From Candidatus Kryptoniota bacterium (GTDB lineage Bacteria; Bacteroidota; Ignavibacteria; Kryptoniales; JAKASW01): a stretch of 43,379 bases of DNA. Location of the stretch: NCBI GenBank assembly GCA_024641705.1, contig JAHECO010000031.1, positions 1-43,379 on the forward strand. Direction: 5' to 3'. A program made the position numbers and the translations under genes. This document shows, one piece after another, positions 26,397 through 34,126 of the stretch; the first letter of the stretch is position 1; every line of letters begins with the position of its first letter. The notes below the pieces were generated by a model. That model did no database searches, was not told the origin of the DNA, and saw nothing but the letters and a program-made list of their open reading frames with translations.

Positions 26397-26782
26397 CAAA
26401 GGTTAAAAGGAAAAGAGGTTAAGAGGATAAAAGGCTAAAAGGTAAAAAGGAGCGAACCGTGTCCGCGTGTTCTTTTCCCCCGTTTCTCATTTCTTACTTC
26501 TCGCTTCTTGCTTCCGGTCTCTTGCTTCTATTTGCTATTCTCTGTCTGCTTTCTACCTACTCCTTACTGCCTACAACCAATTCCTATTCGCCTTTCCGTC
26601 ATTCCGTCATTCCATCATTCCGTCATTCCATCATTCCATCATTCCCTTTCCCTAAAATCGTAAATCCTAAATTTTCCATCTTAAATCTCTCTTTCCTTCA
26701 CCTCTTCCCCTCTTAACCTCTTTGCCTTTTCACCTTTTCACCTATTAACCTTTTTACCTCTTCACCTATTAACCCTTTTCCC
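26397..26782. repeat. Strand-asymmetric mosaic repeat region with inverted ends
   Basis: This stretch between the hydrolase and hutU contains no plausible gene. Its left end (26397-26452) is purine-rich on the plus strand, with words such as GGTTAAAAGG, GAGGTTAAGAGG and GGTAAAAAGG. Its right end (about 26695-26782) carries the complements, CCTCTTAACC, CCTTTTCACC and ACCTTTTTACC, so the ends form an imperfect inverted repeat. The core is pyrimidine-rich and built of several short word families: five perfect tandem copies of ATTCCRTC (26601-26640), CTTCTTGCTTC-like words near 26495-26530, and TAAATCCTAAATTTT-like words near 26658-26690. The right end runs into the last codons of hutU. Confidence 0.85.
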
Positions 26783-28463
26783 TAAACTGCATCGGCATAT
26801 CCACTCCCTTTTCCTTCGCGACTCGAATGGCCTCTTCGTAACCCGCGTCGGCATGCCTCACGACGCCGAGCCCCGGATCGTAGGTGAGGACCCTCTTCAA
26901 CCGTCTCGCCGCCGCGTCAGTCCCGTCAGCAACTATGACCATTCCTGCATGTATGGCGAGCCCGATGCCGACCCCTCCGCCGTGGTGGACGGACACCCAG
27001 CTCGCGCCGCCGACGGCGTTCAGCAGCGCATTGAGTATCGGCCAGTCGGCTATCGCATCCGAACCATCCTTCATCTTTTCAGTTTCGCGGTTCGGCGATG
27101 CCACGCTCCCGGCGTCGAGATGATCCCGACCTATGACTATCGGAGCCTTGACTTTACCCGTCTTCACGAGGTCGTTGAAGATCAGTCCCATCTTGTCGCG
27201 CTCCCCGTAACCGAGCCAGCATATCCTCGCGGGCAGCCCCTGGAAATGGACGTACTTTCTCGCCTTCTCGATCCAGTTCACGAGCGGCTTGTTCTCCGGG
27301 AATGTCTTCATGACCGCTTCGTCGGTCGCGTAGATGTCTTCCGGATCACCGCTAAGGGCGGCCCATCTGAATGGGCCCTTCCCCTCGCAGAAGAGCGGTC
27401 GTATAAATTCCGGCACGAACCCGGGTATGTCGAAAGCATCTTTAACTCCGTGTGCCTTAGCCTCTCCGCGGATGTTGTTTCCGTAATCGAAAGTCACCGC
27501 CCCCTGGCGCTTGAGGTTCAGCATCGCGCGGAGGTGTAGGACGATCGACTCCTGTGCCATCGAAATGTACCTGGCGGCGTCCTTCTTCCTCATCTCCAGT
27601 GCAGCCTCATATGTAACTCCGGTGGGCACATAACCGTTCAACGTATCGTGCGCGCTCGTCTGGTCGGTAAGGAGATCGGGCACGATCTTCCGCCTTGCTA
27701 TTTCCGGAATAATGTCGGCGGCGTTTCCGAGAAGCCCGACGGAGAGCGCCTGCTTTTTCGATTTGGCCTCGAGCACGAGGGCAAGAGCCTCGTCGAGGTT
27801 CTCGCTCATCTTGTCCAGGTACCCGGTCTTCAGTCTGCGCTCGATCCTGTTCCTGTCGACCTCCACACCGAGGAATGCGGCACCGTTCATCGTCGCCGCA
27901 AGCGGCTGGGCACCTCCCATACCGCCGAGGCCGCTCGTAAGGACAAACCTGTCGGCCAGCGTTCCGTCAAAGTATCTTCTCGCCGCTTCCGCGAAAGTCT
28001 CGTAGGTACCCTGAAGGATCCCCTGCGTGCCGATATATATCCAACTTCCTGCCGTCATCTGGCCGAACATCGTGAGGCCGAGCGCTTCAAGCCTGCGGAA
28101 CTCGTCCCAGTTCGCCCAGGCCGGTACAAGCATCGCGTTGGATATGAGAACGCGCGGCGCTTCTTCATATGTCTTGAAGACGGCGACCGGTTTCCCGGAC
28201 TGGACGAGCAAAGTCTCGTCGTTTTCGAGGCGTTTCAGCGTCGCAACGATCGCGTCGAACGCCTCCCAGTTGCGGGCCGCCTTGCCGCTTCCGCCGTAGA
28301 CGATGAGTTCGTCCGGCTTCTCCGCAACCTCCGGGTCGAGGTTGTTCATCAGCATGCGCAGCGCGGCCTCCTGCTGCCAGCCCTTCGTATTGAGTGTCGT
28401 TCCCCTCGGTGCACGGACCACGCGCGAGGTCTTGCCTGTAGCTTTTTTCTCTTCGATAGACAT
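26769..28463 (-). CDS. hutU: Urocanate hydratase
   Basis: HutU adds water to urocanate to give 4-imidazolone-5-propionate, the second step of histidine breakdown, using tightly bound NAD+ as an electrophile. The 564 residues are the usual length. The signatures are [17 protein letters not shown] (178-194) for NAD+, GNNIRGEAK (328-336), and [17 protein letters not shown] with the probable catalytic C415. [17 protein letters not shown] follows near the C-terminus. The start is the ATG at 28463. The hutH gene is 2.2 kb upstream on the same strand, separated by add, a RAYT transposase and a thiamine-binding gene. hutI and hutG are not in the window. Confidence 0.97.
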
Positions 28464-28591
28464 GTTTCGTCTCCGATGATTTGAGCAGCTTCACATATTT
28501 TGAAAACGGGTAGGGTAATTCAAAATGGGCTGCAGTTTCAATGTATCTTTGTTTCGACTATGTCAACAACGCAACCTTCGCCGCCGTCACG

Positions 28592-29710
28592 TCAACCCTT
28601 CTGCGGTCTTCCGCCGTAAGGAGCTTCACCGTTGATCTTGTATTTCTCGCGAATAGCCTTGAAACCCGGCTTGATGACGTCGTAGATATACTTCATGCGT
28701 TCGCCGTACGGGATGAAGGCGCTCTTCATGGCGTTGATAGATAGCTTCTCCATTTCGGCAAACGTCAGGTGAAACACTTTTTCAGCTATCTCGAATTCCT
28801 TCGAGAGAGTCGTGGCACTCATGAGGCGGTTGTCGGTGTTAAGAGTGACCCTGAACTTTTCCCTGTAGTAGGTCCTGAACGGGTGTTCTTCTACACTCTT
28901 CGCGGCACCGGTGTGAACGTTCGAGCTGAGGCAAATCTCCAGGGGAATGCGTTTGTCGAGGACATACTGCGCGAGAGTACCCAGCTTCACCGATTTCCCG
29001 TCGACCATGACGATGTCCTCGATGAGCCGCGTGGCATGACCGATCCTGTGCGCGCCGCACCATTGGATGGCCTGCCAGATCGATTCCTTTCCGAATCCCT
29101 CGCCGGCGTGAATGGTTATGTTGAAGTTCTGTCTCTGGATATAATGGAACGCGTCGACATGCTTCTTGGGAGGATAGCCGCCTTCTTCGCCTGCGAGATC
29201 GAAACCGACCACACCCCGGTCGCGGAAGTCGACCGCCAGCTGTGCCATCTCTTCGCTCAGGCTCATGTTCCTCATCGCGGAGATAATCACGCCATACCCG
29301 ACGCCGAAATCCTTCTTACCTCTTTCCAACCCGCGGAGAACCGAATTCACCACATCTTCCCAGTGGAGCCCTTTGTCCGTGTGGAATACGGGCGCAAACC
29401 TGGTTTCCACGTAAACGACGCCGTCTTTCTTCATATCCTCGAGCATCTCGTATGCAACGCGCTCCAGCGCCTCCGGCGTCTGCATCACGCCGCATGTATG
29501 CGCGAACCCTTCCAGGTACAGCGGCAGGCTTCCCCTGTTGGCACCTCTGTGGAACCACTCCGCAAGCTCCGCCGGGTCCTGCGTGGGGAGCTTGTCGTAT
29601 TTCTGCTCCTTTGCCAGCTCTATCACAGTTTCAGGACGCAGGCCTCCGTCGAGGTGGTCGTGCAACTGCACTTTGGGCATTTCATGTATTGCTTTGGTGA
29701 GATCAGACAT
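28592..29710 (-). CDS. add: Adenosine deaminase
   Basis: This 372-residue enzyme deaminates adenosine to inosine in purine salvage. Metal ligands are H18 and H20 in HDHLDGG, then HAGEGFG and HRIGHATRL with further histidines. The C-terminal metal aspartate is in VTLNTDNRLMS. The NTDN form is what I recall from actinobacterial-type adenosine deaminases, where others have NTDDP. The ATG at 29710 has GGAG seven bases upstream; a TTG one codon earlier is less likely. It sits between hutU and the transposase, without an obvious link to histidine breakdown. Confidence 0.93.
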   Translation of the reverse strand: MSDLTKAIHEMPKVQLHDHLDGGLRPETVIELAKEQKYDKLPTQDPAELAEWFHRGANRGSLPLYLEGFAHTCGVMQTPEALERVAYEMLEDMKKDGVVYVETRFAPVFHTDKGLHWEDVVNSVLRGLERGKKDFGVGYGVIISAMRNMSLSEEMAQLAVDFRDRGVVGFDLAGEEGGYPPKKHVDAFHYIQRQNFNITIHAGEGFGKESIWQAIQWCGAHRIGHATRLIEDIVMVDGKSVKLGTLAQYVLDKRIPLEICLSSNVHTGAAKSVEEHPFRTYYREKFRVTLNTDNRLMSATTLSKEFEIAEKVFHLTFAEMEKLSINAMKSAFIPYGERMKYIYDVIKPGFKAIREKYKINGEAPYGGRPQKG

Positions 29711-29752
29711 CAAATTCTCCGCTTGTAATCGACAAATTCAAATGACGATGAT

Positions 29753-30310
29753 TCATTCCTCTTTCCAATTCAAAGGATTGTTCACAATATAATTCCTGAC
29801 GTTCGATAATTCTTTTCGGCTGCGAATGATTCTGTCATGAAAACGGGGCTGCCATTCGAAACCTATGTTATTCATCGTTGCCCATTTTTTCACACCGATT
29901 TTGAAACCACGGATAATGGATGCCAGGTTTTGGGATTGCGGTCCGAACCGGTTGGAATTATGCGGATAACGCAGCGACGCAATATTTTGCGTCGCTGCCA
30001 CTCCCGCGGTACCGCCATTTTTGGCGATCACAATAACCCCATGGACATGATCGGGCATGATCGCGTGTTCATACAATTTTACAAACGGGAAATGTTCCGG
30101 AATTTCAACCCAACATTTATCGGCCACCGCGCCGATCTCAGACAGAATCATTTTGCCATTCTCAACACGCCCGAAGACACGTTCTTTATCCTTTACACAG
30201 ATCGTCACGAAATAGCAACCGTTTGAAGAATAATCCCACCCTTTCAACCGGCGTGTTTCTCTTCGATATTTGTTCTTATATAATTGCTTCATCCCGGTGA
30301 GAAAATTCAT
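29753..30310 (-). CDS. REP-associated tyrosine transposase (RAYT, TnpA_REP type)
   Basis: A 185-residue single-domain HUH/Y1 transposase of the IS200-like RAYT family. The motif MPDHVHGVIVI holds the two metal-binding histidines, and RFHDRIIRSRKELSNVRNYIVNNPLNW contains the likely catalytic tyrosine near the C-terminus. The opening RRLKGWDYSSNGCYFVTICVKDKE is typical. RAYTs are single-copy chromosomal genes thought to process or spread REP palindromes rather than to move as insertion sequences. It overlaps the upstream gene by 4 bp (ATGA); an internal ATG at 30292 (MKQLYKN) is another start. A perfect palindrome lies within the coding sequence between the two active-site motifs. It looks intact. 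Confidence 0.92.
   Translation of the reverse strand: MNFLTGMKQLYKNKYRRETRRLKGWDYSSNGCYFVTICVKDKERVFGRVENGKMILSEIGAVADKCWVEIPEHFPFVKLYEHAIMPDHVHGVIVIAKNGGTAGVAATQNIASLRYPHNSNRFGPQSQNLASIIRGFKIGVKKWATMNNIGFEWQPRFHDRIIRSRKELSNVRNYIVNNPLNWKEE
29971..29998. repeat. Perfect palindrome inside the RAYT gene
   Basis: GCAGCGACGCAA (29971-29982) and TTGCGTCGCTGC (29987-29998) are exact reverse complements separated by the four bases TATT. It encodes AATQNIASL in the transposase, in the variable stretch between the HUH motif and the tyrosine helix. It could form a 12-bp hairpin in DNA or mRNA. Confidence 0.95.
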
Positions 30311-30579
30311 TTGGGATTCAATCTCTTCAGCTCCTCATCAGACGGCGCGCCATTGACCACCGTGATAACCATTACGGTGTCCCCACTCTTTGCCGCCGAC
30401 TGGTACGCGCTCTTCAGCGAATCGAACACTTTCCCGATATCGCCGCTTCCTATCGTGGATGTCTCATGAACCTGTACGCGAATGTCATCTTTCCGGAGAT
30501 CCGCTATGAAATTGTCTATCGGTTTCTTGAATTCTTTTTGTCCAACCGGATAGAGACTGACCTGAAATGTAATATTCAC
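30307..30579 (-). CDS. Thiamine-binding protein, MTH1187/YkoF-like (DUF77)
   Basis: A small 90-residue protein of the MTH1187/YqgV family. The family pattern is visible: an opening strand FQVSLYPVG, then KPIDNFIADLRKDDIRVQVHETSTIGSGDIGKVFDSLKSAYQSA, then VMVITVVNG. These ferredoxin-fold proteins bind thiamine or its precursors, but their role is unclear. I chose the GTG at 30579 because AAAGGAAAAGAA sits immediately upstream and the following sequence is the first conserved strand. The frame is open to 30633. It overlaps the transposase start by 4 bp, an unusual arrangement that would couple the two genes. Confidence 0.85.
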   Translation of the reverse strand: MNITFQVSLYPVGQKEFKKPIDNFIADLRKDDIRVQVHETSTIGSGDIGKVFDSLKSAYQSAAKSGDTVMVITVVNGAPSDEELKRLNPK

Positions 30580-30655
30580 TTCTTTTCCTTTCACAATTTG
30601 CCGATGTTCAGCAGTGGCCCATCTCCAAGCCACGATACAACGAGACGCCCCTTAC

Positions 30656-30683
30656 CGTCATTCCCGCGCAAGCGGGAATCCAG
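30656..30683. repeat. REP-like palindrome between hutH and the thiamine-binding gene
   Basis: ATTCCCGC (30660-30667) and GCGGGAAT (30672-30679) are perfect arms around GCAA, within the wider string CGTCATTCCCGCGCAAGCGG and AATCCAG. This is the widespread CATTCCCGC-type dispersed repeat. It sits 9 bp beyond the hutH stop and about 350 bp from the RAYT gene. No T-run follows, so it is better read as a REP than as a terminator. Confidence 0.85.
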
Positions 30684-30691
30684 CTTGTCGT

Positions 30692-32245
30692 TCAATCGAG
30701 TTTACCCGCACCGCGTTCGGCCGCGTGCACAACTTCTCCCGACTTCAGCAAGGCAAGCGCCGCTTCGATGTCCCTGTGCAGGATCCGGTCCTTGTGCAGG
30801 TGTTTGATCTTTCCGCGGACAACCGTGTATACCGCTTCCGTCCCGGCACCGCACTTCAGGTTCCTGCCGTTGCCTCCTATCTTGCGGGCAAAATCGATCG
30901 CCTGGCACGATATGAGCAGCTCGATGGCGGCCACCCGCCACACGTTCTCGAGCACCCTGTGGCATTTCTGCGCGGCTATCGAACCCATGGAGTTGTGGTC
31001 CTCCTGGTTCGCGCTGGTCGGGATTGAATCCACGCTCGCGGGATGCGCGAGGATCTTGTTCTCGCTGACGAGCGACGCGGCCGTATATTGCGCGATCATC
31101 ATGCCTGAGTTGAGTCCGCCGTTCTGGCTGAGGAACTTCGGCAATCCGCTGAGCTGTCCGTTGACCATTCGCTCGATGCGCCGCTCCGAAATACTCGCAT
31201 ATTCGCTCAACCCGATAGCCAGGTAATCGAGGACGAGCGCAAGCGGCTCGCCGTGAAAATTGCCCCCTTCGAGATGTGTCCCGTCCTTCGCGAAGATAAG
31301 CGGGTTGTCTGTCGCCGAGTTTACCTCGACGTTGACCTGTCTCCGGCAAAACTCTACTGTATCCCTGACGGCACCATGCACCTGCGGCATACACCTGAGC
31401 GAATAGGCATCCTGGACGCGCGGGTCGTTATGTATGTGAGACTTCCGTATCTCGCTCCCCTTCATCAACCGCCGTACGTTCTTTGCCGACTCCTGCTGTC
31501 CCTTGTAAGGCCGGAGCCTGTGGATGCGTTCGTCGAAAGCTACGTCTGTACCGCGGAGCGCCTCGACGCTGAGCGCGCCGGTGATATCGAATATCTTCGT
31601 CAACTGCGATGCCTCGTAGGTGGAGTGCACGGCAAATGCCCCCATCATCTGTGTGCCGTTGACTAGTGCGAGGCCTTCCTTTGCGGTAAGCTTCAGCGGG
31701 GTCAGGCCGTGTCTCCTCAAGATGCCCGCTGCCGGGACGAGACGGCCGTTCACGACGAAGCTTCCCTCCCCCATCAGCGCGAGGACAAGGTGCGCAAGCT
31801 GGACGAGGTCGCCGCTGCTGCCGACCGAGCCCTTTGCCGGTAGGAAGGGGATGAGGTTGAGATTGAAGACTCTCAGGAGCTGTTTCACGACCTGAGGACG
31901 GATCCCGCTGAACCCTTTCGCGAGAGCGTTAGCGCGGAGGAGGATTATGAGACGCACAATATCGGCCGGCAGCGGCTCTCCCGTGCCGGCTGAATGACTC
32001 CGGATAAGGTTGACCTGGAGCTCTTTTATCTTCTCGTGCGGGATTTTCACGGTGGCGAACTCGCCGAAACCGGTCGTGACTCCGTATATGACCTCGTCAC
32101 CGGCGAGCCACTTCTCTACCTGCCTGCGCGACCGTTCCATGTTGCGGATTGCGGACGGCGACAGCGAAAGCTTCGTGAGTGCTTTCTCGGCAAGGTAGGC
32201 ACTCTCGATTGTAAGGGATGATCCGTCAAGGAGGAGTTGAGGCAT
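30692..32245 (-). CDS. hutH: Histidine ammonia-lyase (with SSG at the MIO site)
   Basis: HutH removes ammonia from histidine to give urocanate, the first step of histidine breakdown. It uses the MIO cofactor made autocatalytically from three residues. The 517-residue protein has the catalytic Y54 in YGVTTGFG, the MIO loop GSVGSSGDLVQLAH at 139-152, NGTQMM, the QDAYSLRCMPQVHGA block and the C-terminal TSANQEDHNSMG. The MIO triad reads S143-S144-G145, whereas the usual triad is Ala-Ser-Gly. Related MIO enzymes (tyrosine or phenylalanine ammonia-lyases or mutases) are alternatives, but neighbouring hutU and overall similarity favour histidine. The start is the ATG at 32245, with AAGGA upstream. 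Confidence 0.93.
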   Translation of the reverse strand: MPQLLLDGSSLTIESAYLAEKALTKLSLSPSAIRNMERSRRQVEKWLAGDEVIYGVTTGFGEFATVKIPHEKIKELQVNLIRSHSAGTGEPLPADIVRLIILLRANALAKGFSGIRPQVVKQLLRVFNLNLIPFLPAKGSVGSSGDLVQLAHLVLALMGEGSFVVNGRLVPAAGILRRHGLTPLKLTAKEGLALVNGTQMMGAFAVHSTYEASQLTKIFDITGALSVEALRGTDVAFDERIHRLRPYKGQQESAKNVRRLMKGSEIRKSHIHNDPRVQDAYSLRCMPQVHGAVRDTVEFCRRQVNVEVNSATDNPLIFAKDGTHLEGGNFHGEPLALVLDYLAIGLSEYASISERRIERMVNGQLSGLPKFLSQNGGLNSGMMIAQYTAASLVSENKILAHPASVDSIPTSANQEDHNSMGSIAAQKCHRVLENVWRVAAIELLISCQAIDFARKIGGNGRNLKCGAGTEAVYTVVRGKIKHLHKDRILHRDIEAALALLKSGEVVHAAERGAGKLD

Positions 32246-32482: not shown

Positions 32483-32641
32483 TCCTTCAGAATGACAATT
32501 CTATCCTTCCAGATAATCTACCTAGATGATATCTATCCAATCTGCTACTGGTGATTGCCCATTTTGAGACTGCACGTGACATTCATATCGAAATGCCACG
32601 CCAATTTGTATTTTCATCCCGCTCTAATTAGTTTTCTCCAC

Positions 32642-34126
32642 ATGAACGAGCCCCTCAATTTTGTCCTGGTGACGGTGGGCCTCACGGCCCTGGTACTCGT
32701 CGCCGACCAGGCCAAGAAGATCTACAACATCGAGCCGAAGAAGACGCGCATGTTCGTCCATGTCGCGGTGTCGGTCGTCATCTTCTTCGCCCCCTACTTC
32801 TTCGTATCGAAACTGTATCCGGCTCTCCTCGCCGGAGTCTTCATCATCGTCAACTTCGCCTCGATAAAGCTCGGCCTCTTCAAGGGGATGAACGTCGATA
32901 AGAAGAACCTCGGCACCGTTTACTACCCGGTCTCGTTCCTCGTGCTGGTCCTGCTTCTCTGGGATACGTACCCGTACATCGTATCGACCGCCATGCTCAT
33001 AATGGGGCTTGCCGACCCTGCAGCTGCTATAGCGGGCTCGTCGCTGAAGAACACCCACAAGGTCTCCGCATTCGGCGAGCACAAGACATTTGAAGGCGCC
33101 TCCGCGATGTTCATCGTCTCAGCCGCGGCAGCGCTGGCCGGGATACTCTTCTTCCGCGGATTCCCCGGCGGAACCGCTGCAATTCCGTACTCCTCCGTGT
33201 TCAATATCTGCGTGGCCATCGGGATAATGATCGCGGCGGTCGAGCTTATCTCGCCGCGGGCCACCGACAACCTCACTGTCCCGCTGTCATCGGCGCTTCT
33301 TCTGTATATCGCCGTCCAAAACATGCCGCTCTTCCAGTTGTTCATGGTCGGCGAGTTCCTCGCGTTCATTGTGGCATTCGTGTCACGGAAGCTCAAGCTC
33401 CTCTCCACCGACGGCGCCGTTGCTGCGTTCATACTCGGCGGATTCATTTTCGGTTTGGGTGGCTGGGAATGGGCGATTCCGATACTCCTCTTCTTCCTTA
33501 TAGGGAGCGGTGCCTCGAAGCTCTTCGCCTCCGCAAAGGCAGGCTACAACCTCCTCTACGAGAAGAGCCACACGCGCGACGCCGGGCAGGTGTTCGCCAA
33601 CGGCGGCGTTGCGCTGCTCATGATGATATTCAGCATCATCTCCCCCGACCACCACTGGTACCTCGCTTTCCTCGGCTCGCTCACCGCCGCAACTGCCGAC
33701 ACGCTTGCCACCGAGATCGGCGTTTTTTCAAGGACCAACCCGTTTTCTCTCTCGCTCTGGAAGAAGGTCGAGAAGGGGATGTCCGGCGCAGTTTCTTACC
33801 TCGGCACGACTGCCGGCGTGGTATCCGCCGCGATGCTGGCGTCGCTGTCGCTGCCGTTCTCCGGCGGGTACATGCTTTTCCCTATTCGCTTCGTTGTTGC
33901 CGGTGCATTGAGCGGCGCACTCGGGAGCCTCGCCGACAGCATCATCGGCGGGACGTTCCAGTCGCAGTACAGCTGTTCGAAGTGCGGAAAGATCACCGAG
34001 CGCACGCGCCACTGCGACGGGCGCGAAACAACGCTCGTCTCCGGTTATCGCTGGATTAACAATGATGTTGTGAATCTGGCCGGAAGTATCGTAGGGGCTG
34101 TCGCATTTCCGCTGTTGTTCAGGTGA
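32642..34126 (+). CDS. Dolichol-kinase-like / DUF92 fusion membrane protein (predicted isoprenoid-alcohol salvage kinase)
   Basis: A 494-residue polytopic membrane protein with two parts. Residues 1-235 resemble the SEC59/phytol-kinase (VTE5) family: MGLADPAAAIAGSSLKNTHKV (121-141) and EHKTFEGASAMF (146-157) match the conserved Asp-Pro and Lys-x-x-Glu-Gly motifs of CTP-dependent polyprenol kinases. Residues 240-494 are DUF92 (TMEM19/VTE6 type), with RDAGQVFANGG (312-322), ATADTLATEIG (350-360), KGMSGAVSYLGTTAG and a C-terminal cysteine/histidine cluster (C445, C448, C458). In plants VTE5 makes phytyl phosphate and VTE6 phosphorylates it to the diphosphate, so a two-step kinase is predicted. 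I chose the ATG at 32642, where the membrane protein begins. The frame is open to 32555, and no strong Shine-Dalgarno is seen. Confidence 0.87.
   Translation: MNEPLNFVLVTVGLTALVLVADQAKKIYNIEPKKTRMFVHVAVSVVIFFAPYFFVSKLYPALLAGVFIIVNFASIKLGLFKGMNVDKKNLGTVYYPVSFLVLVLLLWDTYPYIVSTAMLIMGLADPAAAIAGSSLKNTHKVSAFGEHKTFEGASAMFIVSAAAALAGILFFRGFPGGTAAIPYSSVFNICVAIGIMIAAVELISPRATDNLTVPLSSALLLYIAVQNMPLFQLFMVGEFLAFIVAFVSRKLKLLSTDGAVAAFILGGFIFGLGGWEWAIPILLFFLIGSGASKLFASAKAGYNLLYEKSHTRDAGQVFANGGVALLMMIFSIISPDHHWYLAFLGSLTAATADTLATEIGVFSRTNPFSLSLWKKVEKGMSGAVSYLGTTAGVVSAAMLASLSLPFSGGYMLFPIRFVVAGALSGALGSLADSIIGGTFQSQYSCSKCGKITERTRHCDGRETTLVSGYRWINNDVVNLAGSIVGAVAFPLLFR

Follow-up and report, generated by a model that had tools for sequence, protein, structure and literature searches.

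A bacterial membrane protein joining a COG0170-type kinase-like domain to DUF92: a probable two-step isoprenoid alcohol salvage enzyme

We analyzed a stretch of DNA of 43,379 nucleotides from a Candidatus Kryptoniota bacterium, which is called the window below, and found in it a gene for a single membrane protein that joins a COG0170-type kinase-like domain to a DUF92 domain. We think, with a probability of about 0.6, that this protein is a bifunctional salvage enzyme, which converts an isoprenoid alcohol into its monophosphate and then into its diphosphate, and that the likely substrate has a C20 chain. That is, a free C20 alcohol of the phytol or geranylgeraniol type is probably turned by the fusion into a usable diphosphate. 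To our knowledge, very few organisms are known to have enzymes that rescue farnesol, geranylgeraniol or phytol as free alcohols. The features discussed are listed in Table 1.

Table 1. Features of the fused gene and of related loci. Positions without a locus name refer to the window.
Feature	Position	Strand	Basis
Fused isoprenoid alcohol kinase-like / DUF92 membrane protein, 494 aa	32642..34126	+	Open frame and full-length homologs
Putative Bacteroidota-type promoter, TTTG-N20-TAGTTTTC	32605..32636 (region to 32641)	+	Kept in 8 relatives
N-half, aa 1-233, COG0170/SEC59-VTE5-like	32642..33340	+	Profile-profile comparison, invariant residues, structural match to CdsA
C-half, DUF92/COG1836 (VTE6 family, putative isoprenyl-phosphate kinase)	33359..34099	+	PF01940 and residue table
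Putative zinc knuckle C445-x2-C448-x8-H457-C458 inside DUF92	33974..34015	+	Alignment
Fusion with decayed N-half	L148:2313-3938		
Fusion with decayed N-half	L149:3042-4562	-	
Fusion with decayed N-half	L159:3025-4524	-	
Fusion with decayed N-half	L164:2625-4115		
Geranylgeranyl reductase (GGR) of the source genome	L113:1489-2649		
PcrB/GGGP synthase of the source genome	L121		
DGGGP-synthase-like UbiA of the source genome	L110:1432-2247		

The fused gene and its surroundings

The open reading frame runs from an ATG at 32642 to a stop codon at 34124-34126 and has no internal stop. The frame upstream of the ATG stays open as far as a TTG at 32555. We rejected this TTG and took the ATG as the start, because the homologs begin there and a conserved element lies directly 5' of it. 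This element, TTTG-N20-TAGTTTTC, stops a few bases short of the ATG, and its TTGT, TTTC, TTA and TTT blocks were invariant among the eight relatives in the genus. It is consistent with a promoter of the Bacteroidota type; a search for a sigma-70-type site upstream of the gene found none. The conserved sequence suggests that the element is such a promoter and that the mRNA of the fusion would be near-leaderless, with only a very short leader.

A search of the source genome found one DUF92 gene, namely the fusion. The fusion is real, far beyond chance, and is no accident of assembly. The coordinates that the sequence-only reading had given for a two-domain fusion proved right, the DUF92 half being recovered by Pfam and the N-half by profile comparison. 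The four motifs which that reading had quoted (DPAAAIAG, KTFEGAS, RDAGQVFANGG and ADTLATEIG) were all present. Their key residues, D125, A128, G132, K148 and G152 in the N-half and R312, D313, N320, D353, T354 and E358 in the C-half, were kept in the 22 aligned full-length relatives, with the exception of the Glu of KTFEGAS, which was not conserved across them.

The fusion gene stands alone, adjoined by divergently oriented histidine-utilisation genes and by unrelated genes. Positions 26769-32245 of the window hold genes for urocanase, an aromatic amino acid lyase and adenosine deaminase, and a YkoF-like gene and a transposase-like ORF lie between them. We considered a conserved operon around the fusion and rejected it; the neighbours kept beside the fusion within the genus are the histidine-utilisation and adenosine deaminase genes. 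No isoprenoid-linked gene recurred beside the fusion in the distant relatives that we compared.

The N-half belongs with the COG0170 family

When the N-half was used as a single sequence, searches of Pfam, NCBIfam and the PDB returned nothing significant, and PF01148 did not match it at the Pfam cut-off. The same model matched the N-half weakly in 7 of 20 relatives (best E 7e-4). PF01148 is a poor gate for the COG0170 family, because a stand-alone COG0170-type protein of the source genome also falls below its cut-off (E 0.011).

Comparison of profiles gave a clear answer. With hhalign, the family profile of the N-half matched 30 stand-alone COG0170-type proteins at 99.4% probability (E 2.1e-21), where the COG0170 label of the stand-alone proteins comes from their motifs and from sub-threshold PF01148 matches. 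A profile of 20 N-halves matched the stand-alone protein of the source genome, which has 225 aa and bears RKxxH, DASSA..G, PKSYEGS and AE..DDN..P, at 97.6% probability. The two profiles also recovered each other, the N-half profile finding the stand-alone proteins with E values from 3e-15 to 8e-7, and the stand-alone protein as a single query matched the fused N-half in two genomes (G039, E 2e-6; G004, E 2e-5). From these profile comparisons we conclude that the N-half belongs with the COG0170 (SEC59/VTE5/PolK) family. The proposal that a profile search would place it there thus failed for the single sequence against Pfam and held for the family profile against the stand-alone proteins. A stand-alone COG0170-type kinase gene, at L047:1339-2016, lies directly 3' of an FtsH-like protease gene and is common in the phylum.

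The conserved residues of the N-half form the motifs DxxAxxxG (D125-G132), K[ST]xxG (K148-G152) and E..DN..P (E201, D209-N210, P214). Besides the residues named above, R36, H40, E201, D209, N210 and P214 were invariant in the 22 full-length fusions. PfPolK of P. falciparum is a CTP-dependent prenol kinase for which an Arg-Lys-x2-His charged clamp has been modelled. R36 and H40 have the Arg-x3-His spacing of this clamp; the residue in the place of its Lys is Met37 here and Lys in the consensus of the family.

The N-half of the window's protein retains all of the conserved residues listed, and D125 and K148 were both kept in 56 of 63 aligned N-halves, the window's protein included. In four other fusions (Table 1) several putative catalytic residues are missing from the N-half while DUF92 is intact, in L163 both R36 and H40 are lost, and in L170, L172 and L174 K148 is substituted. 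The fused N-domain is therefore not always an active kinase. Separate N-like kinases of about 230 aa are encoded in several genomes of family f3, among them G051 and G062, in both of which the N-half of the fusion has degenerated. Such losses and such separate kinases would agree with a mainly structural or regulatory N-half, in which case a separate COG0170-type kinase would perform the first step in trans and DUF92 alone would be catalytic; we consider this quite improbable for the window's protein, in view of the retention of D125 and K148 in it and in most of the aligned N-halves.

The C-half is a DUF92 domain

PF01940 matched residues 240-486 with 204.4 bits against a cut-off of 27.5 (E 2.5e-60 / 5.5e-61), so that the assignment of this half to DUF92 passed far over the curated threshold. 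PF01940 corresponds to COG1836, which includes At1g78620, that is, VTE6, the phytyl-phosphate kinase. Within the half, R312, D353-T354, E358, D432-S433, N474 and N478 were invariant, and D313 and D475 nearly so.

The putative zinc knuckle (CxxC...HC) occurs in 44-45 of 62 aligned fusions; most homologs from non-phototrophs have it and the green-sulfur homologs are without it. The match of Zn_ribbon_3 to the window's protein was weak (E 0.23).

An hhalign comparison of the two halves gave 28% probability and aligned D125-x2-A-x3-G with D353-x2-A-x3-G. This alignment is only suggestive of an internal duplication.

Predicted structure

For the full-length fusion, AlphaFold2 gave a model with a pLDDT of 88.4 and a pTM of 0.86. 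The top VIA match of the N-half (model residues 42-226) was CdsA (4q2g), with Z 8.7 and an rmsd of 4.7 A over 163 residues; Foldseek gave this pair a probability of 0.51. A Z of 8.7 is middling for a helical protein, and the catalytic motifs agree in sequence too. When the DUF92 half was folded alone (pLDDT 92.9), Foldseek ranked CdsA first, with a probability of 0.77, and an unrelated structure next, with 0.08. By VIA-align, the match of this half to CdsA (Z 5.9, rmsd 3.0, 126 residues) was tied by unrelated channels. Since the Z value is 8.7 in the one case and 5.9, tied with channels, in the other, the models support a CTP-transferase (CdsA-like) fold for the N-half and only suggest it for the DUF92 half. 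A shared CTP-transferase fold had been proposed for DUF92 from HHpred (Makarova et al. 2015, PMC5898192).

Distribution of the fusion

A scan of a genome collection found full-length relatives, with 85-28% identity, in Bacteroidota, KSB1, Calditrichaeota, Neomarinimicrobia and others. DUF92 was present in 177 of 296 sampled genomes of the phylum. When 40 long-frame DUF92 genes were fetched from the phylum, the N-domain was in the same frame in 39 of them; around 20 short-frame DUF92 genes, no N-domain was found within about 3 kb. We defined green-sulfur-type phototrophs as genomes with the FMO antenna protein, and non-phototrophs as genomes without it. Among 73 FMO-bearing genomes, the long form was present in 70; two were cut at contig ends and one gave no DUF92 match.

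In a spirochaete (L042:7887-9430), the N-domain and DUF92 lie in two adjacent, overlapping open frames, possibly an unfused version. Among plasmid records, there was a single partial DUF92 match (Thermomicrobium) and no match to COG0170.

The fusion is associated with GGR

Geranylgeranyl reductase (GGR, TIGR02032), which saturates C20 isoprenoid chains, was found in 28 of 38 FMO-less genomes with the fusion and in 6 of 40 with a stand-alone DUF92 (p 2e-7), where the latter set consists of genomes with a listed frame length and the tables are drawn from search listings. In the window's class, the numbers were 21 of 21 and 3 of 13, respectively. The difference was also seen within family f3 (8/8 versus 1/7, p 0.0014; by genus 6/6 versus 1/5, p 0.015). 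With families as units, which is only a rough correction for kinship in statistics that are not tree-based, it was 10 of 15 versus 2 of 12 (p 0.019). The link is not strict, because five fusion-bearing families (f19, f27, f40, f42 and f47) had no GGR match; L163 and L164, mentioned above, belong to f19, in which none of the sampled genomes matched GGR.

All 21 genomes of the window's class with the fusion and GGR also had a strong match to PcrB (GGGP synthase), and within this class the sampled strong GGR and PcrB matches coincide in the same genomes. PcrB alone was rejected as the partner of the fusion; in green-sulfur-type genomes of family f24 the fusion is present but no strong PcrB match was found.

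The source genome has one strong GGR (245.7 bits), which is nearest to archaeal-type digeranylgeranylglycerophospholipid reductases, and one strong PcrB (162 bits). Its five UbiA proteins are, by their best descriptions, MqnP-like, CtaB, DGGGP-synthase-like, MenA-like and DPPR-synthase-like, and none of them reached the ChlG/BchG cut-offs. FMO was searched for in this genome and not found. We saw no sign of (bacterio)chlorophyll phototrophy, which agrees with the sequence-only reading in treating the source as a non-phototroph. For FCB bacteria, the combination of GGGPS, DGGGPS and GGR has been put forward as the gene set for ether lipids of the archaeal type.

Since the fusion tracks GGR and the source genome holds GGGPS, DGGGPS-like and GGR genes, the results favour a C20 chain rather than C55 undecaprenol. 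Among the substrates proposed from the sequence alone, C20 alcohols of the geranylgeraniol or phytol type are thus favoured over undecaprenol by co-occurrence, with farnesol as a further candidate. A polyprenol route, in which the fusion would return a long-chain alcohol of the undecaprenol or dolichol type to the pool of glycan carriers and the N-half would be a true dolichol/undecaprenol kinase, is in our opinion unlikely. Dolichol kinase is a COG0170 member, uppS adjoins archaeal DUF92 genes, and the five families without GGR also fit such a route. Against these points, neither uppS nor glycan genes recur in the fusion neighbourhoods compared, the separate stand-alone COG0170-type protein of the genome could fill that role, and the fusion is nearly universal in the sampled green-sulfur-type phototrophs besides tracking GGR.

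The resemblance to CdsA, and the fact that PcrB and GGR accompany the fusion in the window's class, could also be read as signs of a cytidylyltransferase, of which the CdsA-like halves would make a CDP-activated isoprenoid lipid, as in the CDP-archaeol synthase step. We think this very improbable, as VTE5, VTE6 and PolK are kinases and the f24 genomes lack a strong PcrB match. Archaea have CarS of their own, and Methanosarcina nevertheless has the fusion. The CDP-archaeol synthase step has not been found in FCB bacteria, and published work did not detect CarS in Cloacimonetes, which is in favour of such an enzyme. In the same way, we give hardly any weight to the idea that in non-phototrophic FCB the fusion is the missing CTP-using step of ether-lipid synthesis (activation of unsaturated archaetidic acid) instead of a salvage kinase.

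Proposed function

We return to a salvage kinase of two steps. The N-half, as a presumably CTP-dependent kinase of the COG0170 (SEC59/VTE5/FOLK/PolK) type, would put a phosphate on the free isoprenoid alcohol. The C-half, of the DUF92/VTE6 family, would then put on the second phosphate and give an allylic diphosphate for prenyltransferases of the UbiA type. The monophosphate is poorly soluble and sensitive to phosphatases, and the joining of the halves may allow it to be handed directly from one site to the other. The chain would most likely be C20, either that of geranylgeraniol or that of the phytol-like alcohol which its reduction gives. Turnover of (bacterio)chlorophyll would supply the alcohol in the phototrophic relatives. 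In a non-phototroph such as the source organism, the alcohol may come from the turnover of C20 isoprenoid lipids, for which there are the GGGP synthase, DGGGP-synthase-like and GGR genes, or from outside.

If this is correct, both salvage steps could be studied by expressing and assaying one natural gene, for example in E. coli, for which prenol kinase activity of its own has not been reported (PMC9782597). By the Rosetta-stone argument, the fusion suggests that DUF92, a little-characterised family which numerous archaea and bacteria possess, performs the step that follows a COG0170 kinase. The fusion and its link with GGR together make a testable claim on C20 isoprenoid turnover in non-phototrophic bacteria.

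Comparison with known systems

The sequence-only reading implied that the fusion was novel, which did not hold: the architecture is not new, because a fusion of a SEC59-like domain with DUF92 was published in 2015 for Methanosarcina, where it was predicted to carry out a kinase step of isoprenoid metabolism (Makarova, Galperin and Koonin 2015, PMC5898192). In that work, HHpred placed the N-domain of the archaeal fusion in COG0170 with 99.85%. Our literature search, which was limited in coverage, found no paper on the bacterial fusion. What our analysis adds is the breadth of the fusion among bacteria, its near-universal presence in the sampled green-sulfur-type phototrophs, the link with GGR and the decay of the N-half in some lineages.

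By its published description, the Mbar_A3310-type fusion (arCOG02245) agrees with the fusion of the window in its two domains and their order, in the superfamily inference and in the predicted kinase step. It is archaeal and found in the context of uppS, whereas the fusion of the window is bacterial, wide in Bacteroidota/FCB, and linked to GGR and to chlorophyll phototrophs. VTE5 (phytol kinase), FOLK (farnesol kinase) and PfPolK resemble the N-half in family, in the Arg-x3-His spacing and in the class of CTP-kinase fold, but they are separate proteins, whereas the N-half is fused and has Met37 in place of the clamp Lys. VTE6 shares its family with the C-half but is a separate plastid protein. 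Finally, CdsA, the CDP-diacylglycerol synthase (PDB 4q2e/4q2g), is the structure that the N-half matches best, and by Foldseek it also comes first, weakly, for DUF92, but it catalyzes another reaction and the identity is about 12-15%.
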